Part shown: one piece after another, positions 54,450 through 62,220 of the stretch
Numbering within the stretch: position 1 is the first letter of the stretch
Layout of the letters: each line of letters begins with the position of its first letter
Origin: Pseudomonadota bacterium
GTDB taxonomy: Bacteria > Pseudomonadota > Alphaproteobacteria > Rhizobiales > JAKPQE01
DNA: 62,220 bases
Direction of reading: 5' to 3'
NCBI GenBank assembly: GCA_029572955.1
Contig: JAKPQE010000039.1
Span: 1 to 62,220, forward strand
The notes under the pieces: model-generated
Seen by the model: the letters and a program-made list of their open reading frames with translations, nothing else
Database searches by the model: none
Told to the model about the DNA's origin: nothing
Program-made: the position numbers and the translations under genes

Positions 54450-54729
54450 CTGGTCCGACGTCCCGGGATCAGGCTTTCGTTGAGTAGCGAAATCGCGACC
54501 GGGCGACAAGCCGAAACGCAGTCGGTTTCCCCGCCGATCGGCGCCGGGGCCGCGCGGCCGCGGCCGCCGGAACGCGGCATCGCCCGCCTCGGCGCGGCCG
54601 AACCGCAAAAGCCGTTCCCACTTTTCGGCAAAACGCATTATGTTGCGGCGCGCTTTTCCGGTTGGCAGGGATCCGCCCGCCGGACGCCGTCGCGGTCCGC
54701 CGCGCCAACACCAGTCGAGACCGAGCCGC

Positions 54730-56562
54730 GTGACGACCGAGACACTGCCAAAGACCGAACCGGCGCCGACGGCGCCCGACGATCCCTATCTGCTGAGCTA
54801 TCTGTCGACCAAGGGCGCGGCCGCCGGCTCCCGGCTGCGCTGGGGGCTGATGCGCCGCTTCGTCGGCGATTTCATCGTCAAGTACTGGCGGCGCTATGCG
54901 CTCGCCGCGGTGATGATGGCGCTCTATTCGGCGAGCGTCGTCGCGCTGCCCTGGCTGTTCGAGAACCTCGTCAACAAGGTCTTCGTCGACCGCGACGCCG
55001 CGGCGCTGCCGATGCTGATCGGGGCGATCGTGCTGATCTTCTCGGTGCGCGCGGTCTCCAGCTTCGGCCAGCGCTACCTGCTCGCCATGGCCAGCCTCGA
55101 CCTCACCGTCGACCTGCAGCGCCGCACCGGGCGCCACATCCTGACCCTCGACCTCGCCTTCTTCCAGAAGAACCCGGTCGGCCAGATCATCGCCCGCATC
55201 GCCGACGACGTCGCGGTGCTCGACCGCGTCGCCTCCAACATGGTGGTGACGCTGGTGCGCGACATCGCCACCATGATCGGCCTCGTCATCTATGTCGCCT
55301 GGACCAACCCGGTCTGGTTCGGCCTCGCGCTGACCGCCGGCCCGGCGATCGCGGTGCCCGCCATCGTCGCCAATCGCAAGCTGCGCCGCCTCGCCCACCG
55401 CATGCGCGAGAACTGGGGCGAGACGCTGACCTCCTACGAGGAGTGCTTCCACGGCATCCGCGGCATCAAGGCCGAGCACAACGAGCCGCTCGAGGAAAAG
55501 CGCCTCGACCGCGTCATCGACCAGCGCTGGCGCGTCGGCATGAAGGCGGCACGCACCGGCGCGCTGATGACGCCGGTCGTCGACGTCGTCACCTGCATCG
55601 CCCTCGTCGGCGTCATCCTCGTCGGCGGCCGCGAGGTCATCGACGGCGAGGTGCAGGCCGGCACGCTGATGGCCTTCGTCGCCGCGCTGATGCTGCTCTA
55701 CGAGCCGCTGAAGCGCATCGTCCAGCTCAACGCCCTCATCCAGATGTGCGTCGCCTCGATCCAACGCATCTACGAGGTGCTGGAAATGCGCCCGCGCATC
55801 CTCGACCGGCCCGACGCCCGCCCGCTCGCCGATCCCGGCGGCGAGATCCTTTTCGAGAACGTCTCGTTCTCCTACGACGACGGCCACAAGGTGCTCGACG
55901 GCTTCTCGGCCGTCGTGCCGAAGGGCTCGACCGTCGCCTTCGTCGGCTCGTCGGGCTCGGGCAAGACGACCCTCTTCAACCTCATCGCCCGGCTCTACGA
56001 GGTCGGCGACGGCGCCATCCGCATCGCCGGCGAGGACATCCGCGACATCACCATCTCGAGTCTGAGGTCGTCGATCGCCCTCGTCACCCAGGACGTGCTG
56101 CTGTTCGACGCCTCGATCCGCGACAACATCGCCTATGGCACGCCGGATGCGAGCCCGGCGGCGATCGCCGAGGCGGCGCGCCTCGCCGCCGTCGACGATT
56201 TCGTCGGCCGCCTGCCGGAAGGCTACGACTTCCGCGTCGGCCCGCGCGGCACGCGCCTTTCCGGCGGCCAGCGCCAGCGCGTCGCGATCGCCCGCGCCAT
56301 CCTGCGCGATGCCCCGCTGCTGCTCCTCGACGAGGCGACCTCGAGCCTCGACGTCGCCACCGAGGCCCGCGTCCACCAGAACGTCATGACACTGCGGCGC
56401 GGCCGCACGACCGCGATCATCGCCCACCGCCTGTCGACGGTCATGGGTGCCGACCGCATCTACTTCCTCGACCAGGGCCGCATCGTCGAGAGCGGCACCC
56501 ACGAGGAACTGATGTCCCGCGCCGGGCGCTATCGCTCCTACGTGATGGAGCAGGTGGAATAG
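54730..56562 (+). CDS. ABC exporter, fused permease and ATPase (MsbA-like)
   Basis: A 610-residue half-transporter. Six helices (about residues 55-325) precede the ATPase: Walker A GSSGSGKTTL, Q-loop VTQDVLLFD, signature LSGGQRQRVAIARAIL, Walker B LLLLDEAT and an H-loop in IAHRLS. Such proteins export lipid-linked sugars, lipid A, glucans or peptides. Its divergent GT61 neighbour suggests a glycoconjugate. The start is uncertain: the GTG at 54730 gives VTTETLPKTEPAP and a normal length, though the ribosome site is weak; longer frames upstream reach 54640. Confidence 0.92.
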   Translation: MTTETLPKTEPAPTAPDDPYLLSYLSTKGAAAGSRLRWGLMRRFVGDFIVKYWRRYALAAVMMALYSASVVALPWLFENLVNKVFVDRDAAALPMLIGAIVLIFSVRAVSSFGQRYLLAMASLDLTVDLQRRTGRHILTLDLAFFQKNPVGQIIARIADDVAVLDRVASNMVVTLVRDIATMIGLVIYVAWTNPVWFGLALTAGPAIAVPAIVANRKLRRLAHRMRENWGETLTSYEECFHGIRGIKAEHNEPLEEKRLDRVIDQRWRVGMKAARTGALMTPVVDVVTCIALVGVILVGGREVIDGEVQAGTLMAFVAALMLLYEPLKRIVQLNALIQMCVASIQRIYEVLEMRPRILDRPDARPLADPGGEILFENVSFSYDDGHKVLDGFSAVVPKGSTVAFVGSSGSGKTTLFNLIARLYEVGDGAIRIAGEDIRDITISSLRSSIALVTQDVLLFDASIRDNIAYGTPDASPAAIAEAARLAAVDDFVGRLPEGYDFRVGPRGTRLSGGQRQRVAIARAILRDAPLLLLDEATSSLDVATEARVHQNVMTLRRGRTTAIIAHRLSTVMGADRIYFLDQGRIVESGTHEELMSRAGRYRSYVMEQVE

Positions 56563-56597: not shown

Positions 56598-57107
56598 TCA
56601 GAGGCCGCGCACGCGGATCGCCCGGGCGAGGTCCTCGAAGGCCTCGGCGACGCCCGCGCCGGTGAGGGCGCTGGTGCGCACGAAGAAATCCGGCGCGGCC
56701 GCGAACTCGGGATCCCGCTGTGCCGCCGGATCGACGAGGTCCATCTTGTTGAGCAGTGCGACGACCGGCCGGCCGGGCTTCGATTCGGCGAACTGCGCGA
56801 CGAGTTCGACCATCTTGGCGACCGAGTTCGGCCGCTGCACGTCGGCGACGATGAGGGCGCCCGCCGCCCCGCGCAGATAGACGGTCGAGAAGATCGACAG
56901 GCCGAAATCGCCGTCCGTGTCCCAGAGCACGAAGCGGATCGTCTCCTTGTGGCCTTCCCAGTCGTAGACGCAATCGTGCGTGTAGATGTCGACGCCGATC
57001 GTCGCCTTGTAGTCGGCATCGAAGGTGTCGAAGACGAAGCGGTTGGCGATCGAGGTTTTGCCGACGCCGATGTCGCCGAGGATCATGATCTTGCGGGCAA
57101 TCGTCAT
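56598..57107 (-). CDS. Ras-like small GTPase
   Basis: A 169-residue single-domain GTPase of the Ras/Rab/MglA superfamily. G1 is GDIGVGKTS at 11-19, the switch I threonine is Thr36 (YKATIGVDIYTHD), G3 is WDTDG with Asp63 and Gly66, G4 is NKMD at 120-123 and G5 is TSALTG at 145-150. The residue after the G3 glycine, Gln61 in Ras, is Asp67, so intrinsic hydrolysis is probably slow. No C-terminal prenylation cysteine (ends AIRVRGL). It is the last gene of a three-gene set, 6 bp after the roadblock/OmpA gene, and that protein is the obvious partner. Confidence 0.9.
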   Translation of the reverse strand: MTIARKIMILGDIGVGKTSIANRFVFDTFDADYKATIGVDIYTHDCVYDWEGHKETIRFVLWDTDGDFGLSIFSTVYLRGAAGALIVADVQRPNSVAKMVELVAQFAESKPGRPVVALLNKMDLVDPAAQRDPEFAAAPDFFVRTSALTGAGVAEAFEDLARAIRVRGL

Positions 57108-57113
57108 TCGGCG

Positions 57114-59030
57114 TCATTCCCCCTCGAAGGCGAGCTCGAAATCGACCCGCCGGTTGGCGCTCGTCGGCCCGGTCAGAGCCGATATCTCGGGCGAGTCGGG
57201 ACGCCCGATCGCGATCAGCTGCCCGGCCGGCACGCCGAGCGCGACGAGATCCTCGACGACCTGGGCGGCTCGATTGTCGGAGGCCGCGATGCTGGCCTCC
57301 CGGCTTCCCGTGCCGTCGGCGTGACCGACGACCCGAAGGCGCACGCCGGGCGCCGCCTTCAGGGCCTTGGCGATCGCGGCAAGATCGGTCGCAGCGATCG
57401 CTTTGTCCCGATAGACGATTCCGTCCGCGAAGAATATGGCTTTCGTCAAGATTTCGGCGTGCAGCCGGCCAACCGGCGTGGCGAGCCGCCCCTCGACTTC
57501 GGCGAGCGCGCGCGCGAGCCGCGCTTCGAGAGCGGCGATTCGGGCCAGCGCCTCGGCCTGTCCTTTCGCGGTCTCGCTCGCTCCCTGCTGCACCTCGTCG
57601 AAACGCAGAGCGATGTCGTCGGGGTCGACGACGGGGGCGGCGGCGACGCGCTCCTGCAGCGCCGACAGCCGGGCGTCGACGCCGGCGGCCCGGCGCGCCG
57701 TCTCCGAGGCGCCCTGCCGCAATTCCTCGAGCCGCACGGCGATGTCCTTCGGATCGACGACCGGCGCGGCGGCGACCCGTTCCTGCAGCACCGACAGTCG
57801 GGCATCGACGCCGGCGACCTGCCGCGCCGTGTCGCTGATCCGCGCCGTATCCACCACGACGAGTTCGGCCTCGACCTTGGCGTCGCCGGAAATGGCCCTG
57901 GTCCGCTCGATGATCACGTCGCGGGCCGGGCCGTTCGGCACGAGGCCGCGCAGATGGACGACATTGGCGTCCCAGTCGCGATTGGCGATCAGCGGGTAGC
58001 CTGCGAGTTCGGGGCTCGCCTCGATGACGGCGAGCTTGGCGTCGAAGGCCGCCTCGATGCGCGACTGCCAGACCTGGTAGCCGACGACGCCGGCAAAGGC
58101 GAGGGCGAGGGCGCCGAGGACGAAATAGGCGATCTTGGGCTGGCGCGAGGTCTCGATCTGCGACAGCTCGTCGAGGATCGCGTCGTGCAGCTCCTCGAGG
58201 GAGCGGTCGGCATCGTTCCGCTCGAGCGGGCCGGCGTCGCCGCCGCCGAGATCCTCGAGAAACGGCAGGAAGGCTTGATCGATCGCGTCCTCGATCTGCG
58301 GTGCGGTCGAGCCCTGGCCGATGGTCGCCAGCACGAAGCGCGGCGAGGCGCTGATCAGCGCCTTGGCGCCGCCGAGATCGAGCGACCGGAGGCCGCCGCT
58401 CTTGGCGTGCAGCGCCTCCTCGGCAAATCCGAGGATCGCCGAGAGCATGCCGCCGACGAGATCGAGGTTCTCGCCGCCCTCGGCGCCCTCCGCGACGCTC
58501 GGCCAGGCGCCGATCAGCGTGCCGCTCTGGTGGTCGAGAAGCAACATCTGCTGCGGCCGGAAGGCCGTCGCCTCGGCCAGCACCAGCTCGCCATAGGAGC
58601 GGCCGGTGAGGAGCGCCTTCAGCCGCAGCCGCCAGCGACCGAGCGACATGGCGGATTCGAGCCGGGCGTTGATGTCGGCGACGAGGCGCTGGAACGCCTT
58701 GGCGACCGCCGTCGTCACCAGCCGGCCGGTGATCGGATAGAGCGCCTCGACCATCAGGTCGCGCGACTGGGCGATCTCGTTGCGAATGCCGGCGACGACG
58801 AGCGGCGCGATCGCCCCGGCGAGGCGACGATGATCCTCGACGTCCGCCTGCTTGAGGGCGGTCGCCAGCGACTTCGCCATGGCGTGCTCGAACTTGTCGG
58901 GCGTGCCGTAGCGGTCCGATAGTGTGTTGACGTCCCGGTCCAGCCTTTCGAGGGTCTTCTGCTCGTCCGCGAACAGCAGACGCTTCAGTTCGTCGAAATG
59001 GCCGTCCTTCGGGTCAGTCTCGTGCAGCAT
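57114..59030 (-). CDS. Trans-envelope protein: roadblock-like domain, membrane helix, BON-like domain, OmpA domain
   Basis: A 638-residue protein. Residues 1-140 are helical. About 145-260 resemble a roadblock/LC7 domain (QQMLLLDHQSGTLIGAW, GGMLSAILGFAEEALHA, SLDLGGAKALISASPRFVLA). One membrane helix spans about 299-320. Residues 340-393 resemble a BON domain (VVHLRGLVPNGPARDVIIE). Two exact-length 43-residue repeats fill 401-486. The C-terminal OmpA domain (about 530-635) keeps the diaminopimelate-binding Asp572 and Arg587 and the final NRRVDFEL. The topology would tie a cytoplasmic GTPase-interaction domain to peptidoglycan. The roadblock call is by pattern, not search. It overlaps the upstream coiled-coil gene by 17 bp. 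Confidence 0.82.
   Translation of the reverse strand: MLHETDPKDGHFDELKRLLFADEQKTLERLDRDVNTLSDRYGTPDKFEHAMAKSLATALKQADVEDHRRLAGAIAPLVVAGIRNEIAQSRDLMVEALYPITGRLVTTAVAKAFQRLVADINARLESAMSLGRWRLRLKALLTGRSYGELVLAEATAFRPQQMLLLDHQSGTLIGAWPSVAEGAEGGENLDLVGGMLSAILGFAEEALHAKSGGLRSLDLGGAKALISASPRFVLATIGQGSTAPQIEDAIDQAFLPFLEDLGGGDAGPLERNDADRSLEELHDAILDELSQIETSRQPKIAYFVLGALALAFAGVVGYQVWQSRIEAAFDAKLAVIEASPELAGYPLIANRDWDANVVHLRGLVPNGPARDVIIERTRAISGDAKVEAELVVVDTARISDTARQVAGVDARLSVLQERVAAAPVVDPKDIAVRLEELRQGASETARRAAGVDARLSALQERVAAAPVVDPDDIALRFDEVQQGASETAKGQAEALARIAALEARLARALAEVEGRLATPVGRLHAEILTKAIFFADGIVYRDKAIAATDLAAIAKALKAAPGVRLRVVGHADGTGSREASIAASDNRAAQVVEDLVALGVPAGQLIAIGRPDSPEISALTGPTSANRRVDFELAFEGE
57573..57701 (-). 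repeat. Tandem repeat copy 2 (129 bp, 43 codons) in the OmpA-like gene
   Basis: Encodes residues 444-486, TARRAAGVDARLSALQERVA and onward to QQGASE. It directly follows copy 1 with no spacer; about 33 of 43 residues are identical between the copies. Confidence 0.85.
57702..57830 (-). repeat. Tandem repeat copy 1 (129 bp, 43 codons) in the OmpA-like gene
   Basis: Encodes residues 401-443, TARQVAGVDARLSVLQERVA and onward to RQGASE, in the periplasmic stalk between the BON-like and OmpA domains. Both copies share AAPVVDP. Exact 129-bp length suggests a recent in-frame duplication. Confidence 0.85.
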
Positions 59031-59418
59031 CGTCGGACGCCTGGCCGGCGCCGAGCGCCGTGATCTGCCGGCCGACCTCCTCGATGGCGGCGCCGACCGA
59101 CCTGAGGGCGCTGGCCTGGTCGGCCTTCGTGCTCTGGCTGAGCTCGTCGATGCGCCGGTCGATGCCGTCGAGCCGCTCGATCAGGCGCAGTTCCATCGCG
59201 CGCATCGCGCCGTCGAGGGTGGCGATGCGGTTGTCGTTGGTCCGCTGCGCGTCGCCGAACAGGAGTTCGCGCACCTGGTCGATGGGATTGCCGCGAAGGG
59301 CTGCCTGCGACACGGCCTTGAGGGTGTCGTCGGCCGCCTCCGGTCGGTCCTGGTGTTTCGGTTCGGCGGGGTTCGGCTGTCCGCCTCCGTTCATCGAACG
59401 GACATTGTCGTCGGCCAT
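59014..59418 (-). CDS. Small soluble coiled-coil protein of the GTPase/OmpA set
   Basis: A 134-residue acidic protein. The first 40 residues are polar and likely disordered. Residues about 45-125 are predicted coiled coil (ATLDGAMRAMELRLIERLDG and IDRRIDELSQSTKADQ). It carries ELLFGDAQRT at 51-60, almost the same as RLLFADEQKT at residues 17-26 of the next gene's product, so both may dock to one surface. Its 3' end overlaps that gene by 17 bp. First gene of the set, preceded by GGGAG. No known family recognised. Confidence 0.75.
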   Translation of the reverse strand: MADDNVRSMNGGGQPNPAEPKHQDRPEAADDTLKAVSQAALRGNPIDQVRELLFGDAQRTNDNRIATLDGAMRAMELRLIERLDGIDRRIDELSQSTKADQASALRSVGAAIEEVGRQITALGAGQASDDAARD

Positions 59419-59609: not shown

Positions 59610-60056
59610 TCAGACGAAGCAGACCGCTTCGTCGCCGTCCGTCTTTCCCTCGCCGGCCGCGATCGCGTCGCGCATCCCGATGTCGTCTTTGAGGATATGG
59701 TCGACGAGCCAGGTCCGCAGCACGTTGGTCGTTGCCTGGACGAGGCCGGGCAACTCGGCGATCGGCGCGTATTCGAGCTTGTCGACGATCTGGTCGAGGC
59801 GCTGGTTGAGCCGCCGGTGCTCGTCGGCATGCTCGGCGCGCGGCTCGAAGCCGATCGACTTCTGGAAATGCTCCTCGCGCTGGCAGTGGCGGCGCATGTG
59901 CAGGCGCAGCGCATCGATCACCTCGATCGCCCGCTCCCGCGTCATCTCGTGCCTCTTCATGCGGATGAAATCGTTGGCGATGAAGATCGCGAGGCGGTGG
60001 TCGTCGTCGATGACGCCGTTGTCGATCGCCAGCTTGTCGTTCCAGTGGATCTCCAT
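59610..60056 (-). CDS. Bacteriohemerythrin
   Basis: A 148-residue single-domain hemerythrin. All di-iron ligands are in place: His20 (IDDDHR), His57 and Glu61 (HCQREEHF), His76 and His80 (EHADEHRRL), and His120 with Asp125 (HILKDD). The domain opens IHWNDKLAIDNGVIDDDH. It would bind oxygen reversibly, as a store, sensor or carrier to oxidases; a role with the nearby microaerobic respiration genes is possible but not shown. A 9-bp perfect inverted repeat lies about 100 bp upstream. Confidence 0.93.
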   Translation of the reverse strand: MEIHWNDKLAIDNGVIDDDHRLAIFIANDFIRMKRHEMTRERAIEVIDALRLHMRRHCQREEHFQKSIGFEPRAEHADEHRRLNQRLDQIVDKLEYAPIAELPGLVQATTNVLRTWLVDHILKDDIGMRDAIAAGEGKTDGDEAVCFV

Positions 60057-60647: not shown

Positions 60648-61133
60648 TCAACCGGCGAGGTCGCGGCCGGCCGCCGCGCCGCGCCGGGACGCCGATTTCA
60701 TGGCGCAATCGTCCTGGTCGCAGCCGTCGTGGCAGAACATGCCGTGGACGAGGTCGAGCACGGCGCGGACCCGCGGGTTGGTGAGCGAGTAGATGACGTT
60801 CTTGCCGTCCCGGCGCGGCGTCACGATGCGCTCGGCCCGCAGCCGCGCGAGGTGCTGCGAGAGGGCCGACTGACGGATGCCGAGCAGGCGCTCCATCTCG
60901 CCGACGGTCCGTTCGCCCTCGGCCAGCACGGAGAGCACCTGCAGCCGGCCCTCGTTGCCGAAGACCTTGAGGAAGTCGCAGGCCTGCTGCGGGTCGGCGA
61001 CGAGCCCGCCGAGGCTGCGCCTGGCGCCGCGTGCCGTCGCCGGCGCGATGGTGCCGCGCCGCTCGGCCGCGACATCGAGGGCAATGTCGCCGCGCGAACG
61101 GGCGGTATCGGCGGTGGCGGTCGCGGTGGTCAT
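60648..61133 (-). CDS. ArsR-family regulator with Cys/His-rich C-terminus
   Basis: A 161-residue winged-helix repressor. After a 48-residue extension it has DFLKVFGNEGRLQVLSVLAE, LGIRQSALSQHLARLRAERI and RRDGKNVIYSLTNPRVRAVL. Cysteines sit at 52 (QACDFLK), 134, 138 and 143 (MFCHDGCDQDDC). One Cys before helix 2 and one after the wing suggests a thiol/persulfide sensor of BigR/SqrR type. The Cys-His-Asp tail could instead bind metal. A 20-bp inverted repeat lies upstream, as for an autoregulated repressor. The P-type ATPase gene precedes it on the same strand. Confidence 0.9.
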   Translation of the reverse strand: MTTATATADTARSRGDIALDVAAERRGTIAPATARGARRSLGGLVADPQQACDFLKVFGNEGRLQVLSVLAEGERTVGEMERLLGIRQSALSQHLARLRAERIVTPRRDGKNVIYSLTNPRVRAVLDLVHGMFCHDGCDQDDCAMKSASRRGAAAGRDLAG

Positions 61134-61299: not shown

Positions 61300-62220
61300 T
61301 CACGGCAGGCGCCGGCCGAGCCAGTCGCGGGCAAAGAGGCCGCGCCGCACCACCTTCTCGATCTCCAGCAGCACCATCATGGCGACCCCGACCGCGACGA
61401 TGACCAGCCCGTCGACGAGGCCGACATTGCGGGTGTCGAACAGGAACTGCATGACCGGCAGATAGGTGAAGGCGAACTGCAGCGCGACGATGCTGCCGAC
61501 GCCGATCAGCACCGACGGCGTTCCGAGCATCCCGCGCCAGGTGATCGAGCCGCCGTGCAGGTAGCGCACCGAGAACAGGTAGAAGATCTCCATCACGACG
61601 ACCGTGTTGACGACCAGCGTGCGGCCGACCTCGATCGGCAGGCCCCGCGTCTCGGCCCAGAAGAACATGCCGAAGGCGCCGATCGCGACGAGCAGCGAGA
61701 CGAGGCCGACGCGCCAGACGAGGAAGCCGGAGAGCAGCGCTTCGTTGGCCTGCCGCGGCGGCCGCGTCATGATGTTCGGCTCCGCCGGCTCGAAGGCGAG
61801 CACGAGGCCGAGCCCGACGGCCGTGAGCATGTTGACCCACAGCACCTGCGCCGGCGTGATCGGCATCGTGATACCGGACAGGAGCGCAATGAAGATGATG
61901 AATGTCTCGCCGAAGCTCGTCGGCAGGGTCCAGGCGATCACCTTCGTGAGGTTGTCGTAGACGATCCGGCCCTCGCGCACGGCTGCGACGATCGATGCGA
62001 AATTGTCGTCGGCGAGCACAATGGGGGCAGCGCCTTTCGCGGCCTCCGTGCCCTTGCCTCCCATGGCCACGCCGACGTCGGCACGCTTCAGGGCCGGCGC
62101 ATCGTTGACACCGTCGCCGGTCATGGCGACGACGCCGCCGCCGGCCTGGATCGCCTCGATCAGACGCAGCTTGTGCTCGGGTGTCGTGCGGGCGAAGACG
62201 TTGGTCTCGGCGGCGAGGCG
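61300..62220 (-). CDS. Cation-transporting P-type ATPase, C-terminal part (cut by window edge)
   Basis: The visible 306 residues are the end of a P2-type (Ca2+/Mg2+-like) ATPase. It has TTPEHKLRLIEAIQ, the hinge motif MTGDGVNDAPALKRADVGVA, then GKGTEAAKGAAPIVLADDNF and six C-terminal helices including PITPAQVLWVNMLTAVGLGL. The phosphorylation site and N-terminus lie beyond the window. The ion is unresolved. It precedes the ArsR gene by 166 bp, so ArsR might control it or be controlled with it. Confidence 0.92.
   Translation of the reverse strand, partial: RLAAETNVFARTTPEHKLRLIEAIQAGGGVVAMTGDGVNDAPALKRADVGVAMGGKGTEAAKGAAPIVLADDNFASIVAAVREGRIVYDNLTKVIAWTLPTSFGETFIIFIALLSGITMPITPAQVLWVNMLTAVGLGLVLAFEPAEPNIMTRPPRQANEALLSGFLVWRVGLVSLLVAIGAFGMFFWAETRGLPIEVGRTLVVNTVVVMEIFYLFSVRYLHGGSITWRGMLGTPSVLIGVGSIVALQFAFTYLPVMQFLFDTRNVGLVDGLVIVAVGVAMMVLLEIEKVVRRGLFARDWLGRRLP

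Follow-up and report, generated by a model that had tools for sequence, protein, structure and literature searches.

What does a Rab-like small GTPase do in a bacterium when it is encoded beside a protein that appears to reach from the cytoplasm to the cell wall? This question is raised by positions 56598–59418 of contig JAKPQE010000039.1 (assembly GCA_029572955.1) from an alphaproteobacterium of the Rhizobiales, the 62,220 nt of which are referred to here as the window. Three genes lie there on the minus strand, as do all of their features described below: gene A (59014–59418), the first gene of the operon, encoding a predicted coiled-coil-like cytoplasmic protein of 134 amino acids (aa); gene B (57114–59030), encoding a predicted trans-envelope protein of 638 aa; and gene C (56598–57107), encoding a predicted Rup/Rab-like small GTPase of 169 aa. 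Genes A and B overlap by 17 bp (59014–59030) and genes B and C are separated by 6 bp (57108–57113), confirming the layout in an earlier note on this DNA, and NCBIfam gave OmpA-type and small-GTPase matches at the locus. The earlier note viewed the locus as an envelope anchor switched by the GTPase. We consider it probable that the locus is instead a three-gene variant of the Group 1 Rup systems, in which a longin domain of B controls C and a signal passes from the wall to the cytoplasm.

Residues 146–295 of B (58146–58595) are supported as a domain of the longin/roadblock fold by an AlphaFold2 (AF2) model and by structural comparisons with Foldseek and VIA. The model, built from an alignment of 38 sequences (profile A1), reached an overall predicted local distance difference test score (pLDDT) of 81.6 and a predicted template modelling score of 0.58 for residues 1–300. 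Within residues 146–295, block pLDDT was 79–96, and a five-stranded sheet with flanking helices was predicted in the order helix, two strands, helix, three strands and two helices. The top Foldseek matches of the model include adaptin, coatomer, Ragulator, TRAPP and MglB chains (E 4e-4 to 4e-3). The best VIA match was 8yqg_B, the longin domain of a Lokiarchaeal Roadblock-Longin protein (Z 13.1, root-mean-square deviation 2.9, 128 residues), followed by Z values of 12.4 for the TRAPP-subcomplex chain 2j3t_D and about 11 for Mon1-Ccz1 chains, whereas roadblock proteins scored 10.2, 10.1 and 9.5, the last being MglB. The top longin alignments reach the second C-terminal helix (approximately residue 294), whereas the compared roadblock rows end at residues 263–269, and in topology the model seems closer to longin than to classical roadblock. 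The earlier note had proposed a roadblock/LC7-like domain in B and a fold check on residues 140–265; in all three structural analyses this stretch is predicted to be longin/roadblock and not an unrelated fold, although sequence profiles barely detect it.

The domain is preceded by an N-terminal region (residues 1–142; 58605–59030) that is all-helical in the AF2 model, with pLDDT of 59–88 in 10-residue blocks. The conservation of B was followed in 118 distinct rows from 115 loci of alphaproteobacteria, other Pseudomonadota, Nostoc and Bacteroidota, three proteins being present in two pieces. P99, within the ALYPITG motif (residues 96–102), was invariant in all 118 distinct aligned rows, and G170 and A198 were each retained in 114 of 115.

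For the B protein of the window, Pfam listed no roadblock domain and nothing at all in the cytoplasmic part; ten relatives scanned likewise had no listed roadblock match, none appeared among the 25 families listed for the 38 aligned members (27 of which had matches), and PF03259 had no match in the whole genome of the window. The Pfam model misses some MglB homologues (PMC4316618). Two routes to a proof of the roadblock domain from sequence were rejected: a phmmer search of B against the PDB returned OmpA-domain relatives and one chance match to the stalk, and a profile search returned one chance ferritin match. No sequence-level match of B to eukaryotic longin Rab regulators was found; matches to the longin profile were also obtained in additional B proteins. 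The weak profile-level similarity to roadblock, together with the PAS-like fold of longin domains (PMC3521125), would suit an explanation in which the structural matches reflect the broad PAS-like superfamily (profilin, GAF, PAS), with B an ordinary cytoplasmic ligand sensor that has the GTPase as a neighbour by chance. We regard this as very improbable, because all 50 VIA matches listed (Z 9.3–13.1) bear titles of the longin/roadblock type (longin, roadblock, TRAPP, Mon1-Ccz1, adaptin-sigma and similar), the model includes the pair of C-terminal helices typical of longin, and B has a Rab-like GTPase next to it across phyla.

The GTPase itself (Pfam Ras, 8.8e-27) carries the G1 motif GDIGVGKT, the G3 motif WDTDGDF, which lacks Gln, and the G4 motif NKMD, and its closest PDB relatives are Rab proteins, the best being Rab22A (1.1e-20). 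No other single-domain Ras-like GTPase was found in the genome of the window, in which three weaker PF00071 matches lie within frames of 498–908 aa. Unlike in MglA-type GTPases, the G3 Asp is kept (WDTDG), and judged by its motifs C is of the Rup/Rab-like type, not MglA. Its placement among the Rup GTPases rests on these motifs, on its neighbourhood and on the Mesorhizobium loti member named by Wuichet and Sogaard-Andersen (2014; PMC4316618). Prokaryotic Group 1 Rup GTPases have been described as very similar to Rab, Ran, Ras and Rho. In the 2014 survey, Group 1 Rup neighbourhoods hold genes for a coiled-coil protein, for an unknown domain joined to an inner-membrane helix and OmpA, and for a signalling output; the missing G3 Gln was noted, none of 121 Rup GTPases was coupled to MglB, and the sections available to us report no experimental characterisation of Group 1 (PMC4316618). 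The earlier note knew of no characterised system with this architecture; the architecture proves to be already in print, though uncharacterised. A search for Rup names in the literature available returned only PMC4316618, and further literature searches brought up no additional paper on the system. Longin/roadblock domains are listed as present in bacteria generally (PMC4917890), and among the titles and openings of abstracts found by searches on longin or roadblock with bacteria and GTPases, none assigned a longin domain to this system.

The locus thus shares with Group 1 Rup the Rab/Ras-like GTPase without a G3 Gln, the coiled-coil gene and the gene joining the unknown domain, a helix and OmpA, and what was called the unknown domain is, by predicted fold, longin/roadblock here. 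Among the 92 readable G3 motifs from 95 loci, none has the Gln, and catalytic help from a partner is therefore plausible, as the 2014 authors argued (PMC4316618). The longin assignment of the conserved neighbour domain makes it a candidate regulator for Group 1 Rup.

In a search with B of 61 genomes (that of the window and 60 relatives), 38 matched, most via the OmpA domain only, and rows spanned the cytoplasmic part in nine, the genome of the window included. A C-centred scan of named genomes gave 77 loci, mostly from genera of Hyphomicrobiales by name and including two Flavobacteria, and A, B and C stood in order on one strand in 67 of them, so the co-occurrence that the earlier note wished to see checked was found. 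One further locus (L058) has all three genes and fails the order test, its mechanically called open reading frame starting upstream of gene A. B and C occurred without A in five loci and C only in four, two of these at contig ends and the other two being L122 and L123, which were kept in the 77 and count against the 67. L122 and L123 had been considered as GTPase fusions indicative of contact; this was rejected, as they are unrelated GTPases by sequence, which we take to be Obg- and HflX-like. Two of the five B–C loci, L099 and L104, show an open frame upstream of C for no more of B than its OmpA end, the front of B being broken or too diverged to detect. The median gap between B and C was −4 bp (68 loci).

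The cytoplasmic profile of B (A1) had matches in 50 of the 398 Pseudomonadota genomes sampled, one being that of the window, in 11 of 247 genomes of Bacteroidota, counting the centre, and in four plasmid records (Nostoc, Mesorhizobium and two Rhizobium), the whole gene set being present on the Nostoc plasmid. Long B-centred stretches were available for 12 of the 50 Pseudomonadota genomes and three of the four plasmids, and C adjoins B in 14 of these 15, the exception being L163. The gene set is thus kept across genera and phyla, from C-centred and B-centred searches alike. A second, diverged form of the operon, with a 1021-aa B, was observed on rhizobial plasmids (L155 and L156, 7145–12494); in L155, a gene annotated as a nucleotide cyclase lies 3 bp after the GTPase, and a close relative is present in L156. 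In the genome of M. loti UFLA 01-765 (locus L084), two matches to the B profile were seen, a strong one in a 632-aa frame and a diverged one in a 1019-aa frame.

The genes found around the operon bear on what the GTPase might act upon. A hybrid histidine kinase is encoded beside the operon in Nostoc and a HisKA kinase in L168, a HisKA_3 kinase and a LuxR-type regulator lie upstream in L077, and genes with nucleotide-cyclase domains follow the GTPase in L155, L157 and L164. In a homology census, kinase or regulator genes were found within about 3.5 kb at 62 of 82 loci (39 upstream and 23 downstream), which points to signal transduction, and 20 loci, the window included, were without one. The census missed at least one fourth gene (in genome G451) that was found with A3, a profile of the N-terminal region of the fourth protein made from 13 sequences. 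A3 matched in eight of ten genomes tested, each time no more than about 4.5 kb from B, on the operon's own contig; four of the eight had contributed to the profile (G115, G019, G031 and G452) and four had not (G453, G455, G451 and G449). The other two genomes, that of the window and its family sister G001, gave no A3 match. The lineage of the window is thus a variant without a fourth (kinase or cyclase) gene beside the operon, none having been detected in the genome, and in this the locus differs from the Group 1 Rup neighbourhoods described in the available parts of PMC4316618.

The fourth protein also matters for the role of the longin domain. This domain might be a scaffold or dimerisation module only, on which C docks for localisation with its nucleotide turnover unaltered, in the manner of Ragulator, while catalysis comes from another protein, for example through the conserved Gln of the fourth gene product proposed in 2014. 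Ragulator roadblocks do serve as a scaffold, and the 2014 paper draws attention to a Gln that is invariant in the fourth protein, alongside the idea of a Gln supplied in trans (PMC4316618). Yet the genome of the window keeps the operon without a detectable fourth protein, and a rough 13-row alignment of fourth-protein N-termini contains no invariant Gln column. A purely scaffolding longin domain is thus rather unlikely in our judgement, and control of C by this domain remains the reading that we prefer.

The remainder of B forms the predicted wall anchor. A hydrophobic stretch begins at residue 300 (Kyte–Doolittle mean 2.07 over 19 residues) and corresponds to an inner-membrane helix predicted at residues 301–321 (58068–58130) by Kyte–Doolittle and AF2. 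In an AF2 model of residues 294–420 (pLDDT 90.7), a long helix (residues 300–337) is followed by a strand-strand-helix-strand domain at residues 347–392 (57855–57992), predicted to be periplasmic and BON-like or similar to ring-building motifs. As to the BON-like domain of the earlier note, the window protein itself stays below the Pfam BON threshold (E 0.022, 15.5 bits against a cut-off of 27), whereas the Nostoc homologue of B lies above it (E 2.5e-8, 34.5 bits). VIA gave Z values in a range that may reflect chance for this model, namely at best 7.8 for a type III secretion ring protein, 6.5 for DolP (BON) and 5.8 for BonA, and Foldseek gave no match at E 0.001 or better; the modelled domain appears at least as close to type III secretion ring motifs as to BON. 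Next comes a stalk (residues 395–540; 57411–57848) with a tandem 43-aa duplication, encoded as a 129-nt direct duplication (57567–57695 and 57696–57824, 78% identity); its residues 395–419 are helical in the model, which ends at residue 420. An OmpA domain (residues 546–625; 57156–57395; PF00691, 8.5e-9) completes the protein, with D and R at what we take to be the spacing of the peptidoglycan-binding motif. The membrane helix, repeat stalk and OmpA domain of the earlier note are thus borne out, peptidoglycan binding itself being predicted.

The D and R spacing is kept in 79 of 92 B proteins, and the 13 without it include two Flavobacterial proteins and that of Nostoc, in which the OmpA domain is still detected by Pfam. 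Such conservation would fit a reading in which the GTPase is the controller and B the effector, GTP-bound C acting on the longin domain to alter the grip on peptidoglycan and the whole serving as a regulated envelope tether; furthermore, no output gene stands beside the operon of the window or was detected in the genome, so B is the only visible effector there. The distribution of B argues the other way. In three Bacteroidota loci (L119, L121 and L200), B has 283–287 aa and lacks both a strongly hydrophobic helix and an OmpA domain, yet all three genes are present; the short B of L131 ends at the edge of its stretch and was not counted as a helix-less form. The kinase, regulator or cyclase genes near many relatives further suggest that the GTPase feeds signalling. 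A GTPase-controlled tether is thus unlikely, though B could still be the target of C in this lineage. Because the GTPase, coiled-coil and longin genes persist in L119, L121 and L200, GTPase and longin look to be the core and the wall anchor an optional addition. We therefore read the system as an envelope-linked signalling switch more than as an anchor; the envelope anchor switched by the GTPase in the earlier note probably placed the emphasis wrongly, given the B proteins without helix and OmpA and the kinases nearby.

Gene A is called coiled-coil-like from its sequence and from the description of its homologue in the 2014 paper (PMC4316618). It carries the motif IDQVRELLFG (residues 46–55; 59254–59283), which in profile–profile comparison is matched by FDELKRLLFA at the start of B (residues 12–21; 58968–58997). 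With all 75 A proteins, unselected and untrimmed, the match to the N-terminus of B had P 3.4e-5, and the same profile gave P 0.066–0.74 against three control stretches of B. A subset of 38 of the 75 A proteins selected by the motif, with the window's own A excluded, gave P 1.6e-5, a value that the selection favours. Two A proteins repeating a genome (L048 and L118) were left out of these comparisons. In B, L15 of the motif is conserved in 109 of the 111 distinct aligned rows and L19 in 105.

Considering these results, in which gene set, order, conservation, predicted folds and motifs were established by computation, we propose the following scenario, the dimerisation, GTPase binding, GTPase-activating or guanine nucleotide exchange activity and direction of the signal being proposed steps. 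B would be an inner-membrane protein that holds peptidoglycan on the outside through its OmpA domain, borne on a stalk with the BON-like domain. On the inside, its longin-type domain, probably dimeric, would dock C and control its nucleotide state, as MglB, TRAPP and Mon1-Ccz1 do with their GTPases. A would assemble with B, perhaps via the LLFG motif of both. A signal may thus run from the wall or periplasm through the stalk to the longin domain, to the GTP or GDP state of C and on to an output, which in many relatives would be the histidine kinase, response regulator or nucleotide cyclase encoded nearby. In the lineage of the window, no such partner stands at the locus and none was found in the genome; the output may therefore lie elsewhere, or B itself may be the output.

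Several observations weigh against this scenario. Comparison of B with Robl_LC7 (30 sequences) by hhalign is weak, with P 0.006 at best, for the broad B set; a smaller set gave 0.15, as did the broad set when a global alignment was forced. Longin domains are likewise found in proteins with no role in GTPase regulation, SNAREs among them (PMC10933270). L163 has A and B, and no C was detected within 14 kb; among the 11 Bacteroidota loci, C was seen in seven, once on the other strand (L202), the rest having short flanks. On the output side, the 62 of 82 loci are an approximate count in which generic matches, as distant as about 3.5 kb, are included, seven downstream pairs of HisKA_3 kinase and regulator lie on the opposite strand, and no output gene was found beside the operon in the window.

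Around the operon, a bacteriohemerythrin-like gene (59610–60056, minus strand; Pfam Hemerythrin, 1.6e-6) immediately precedes gene A at a distance of 191 bp; it was rejected as an operon partner, the sister locus L039 having another upstream gene. On the other side, what is presumably an ABC transporter-like gene (54640–56562, plus strand) is convergent with the GTPase gene and ends 35 bp from its stop. Further upstream lie a presumed ArsR-like regulator gene (60648–61133, minus strand) and, adjoining it, what we take to be a cation P-type ATPase fragment (61300–62220, minus strand) that runs off the end of the window. A scan for promoters and terminators gave nothing useful.

The system can be set beside others in which small GTPases meet this superfamily. 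The polarity switch of Myxococcus likewise pairs a small GTPase, MglA, with a roadblock/longin-superfamily partner, MglB; it differs in that C is Rup-type with the G3 Asp kept, and that B spans the membrane, is nearer to the longin topology by its model (Z 9.5 for MglB against 13.1 for the top longin) and has no Robl_LC7/MglB sequence match in Pfam. The actinobacterial conservons (CvnA–D) are also operons with a GTPase, a roadblock-fold protein, an extra protein and a histidine kinase, but their GTPase belongs to the MglA type (Group 2), CvnB, the roadblock homologue, is a protein in its own right, and the available text of PMC4316618 mentions no wall-binding part. TRAPP, Mon1-Ccz1 and CPLANE, which are among the top structural matches, use longin domains as docking platforms for Rab-type GTPases, with other partners; here the platform would be operon-encoded and tied to peptidoglycan.

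With the conserved domain named as longin/roadblock, Group 1 Rup gains a specific candidate for its regulator and a surface at which mutations can be aimed. That bacteria run a Rab–longin module of their own, made of a Group 1 Rup GTPase and an operon-encoded longin regulator that is usually bolted through the membrane to peptidoglycan, is a suggestion that we make tentatively, as quite possible though short of probable. The pairing, which at least three bacterial phyla encode within a single gene cluster, bears on the origin of the eukaryotic Rab–longin pairing. Longins have been argued to derive from MglB-type domains (PMC3521125). If the suggestion holds, bacteria would possess a counterpart of the platform on which GTPases of eukaryotic membrane traffic sit on longin domains, one through which the cytoplasm is informed of the state of the cell wall.

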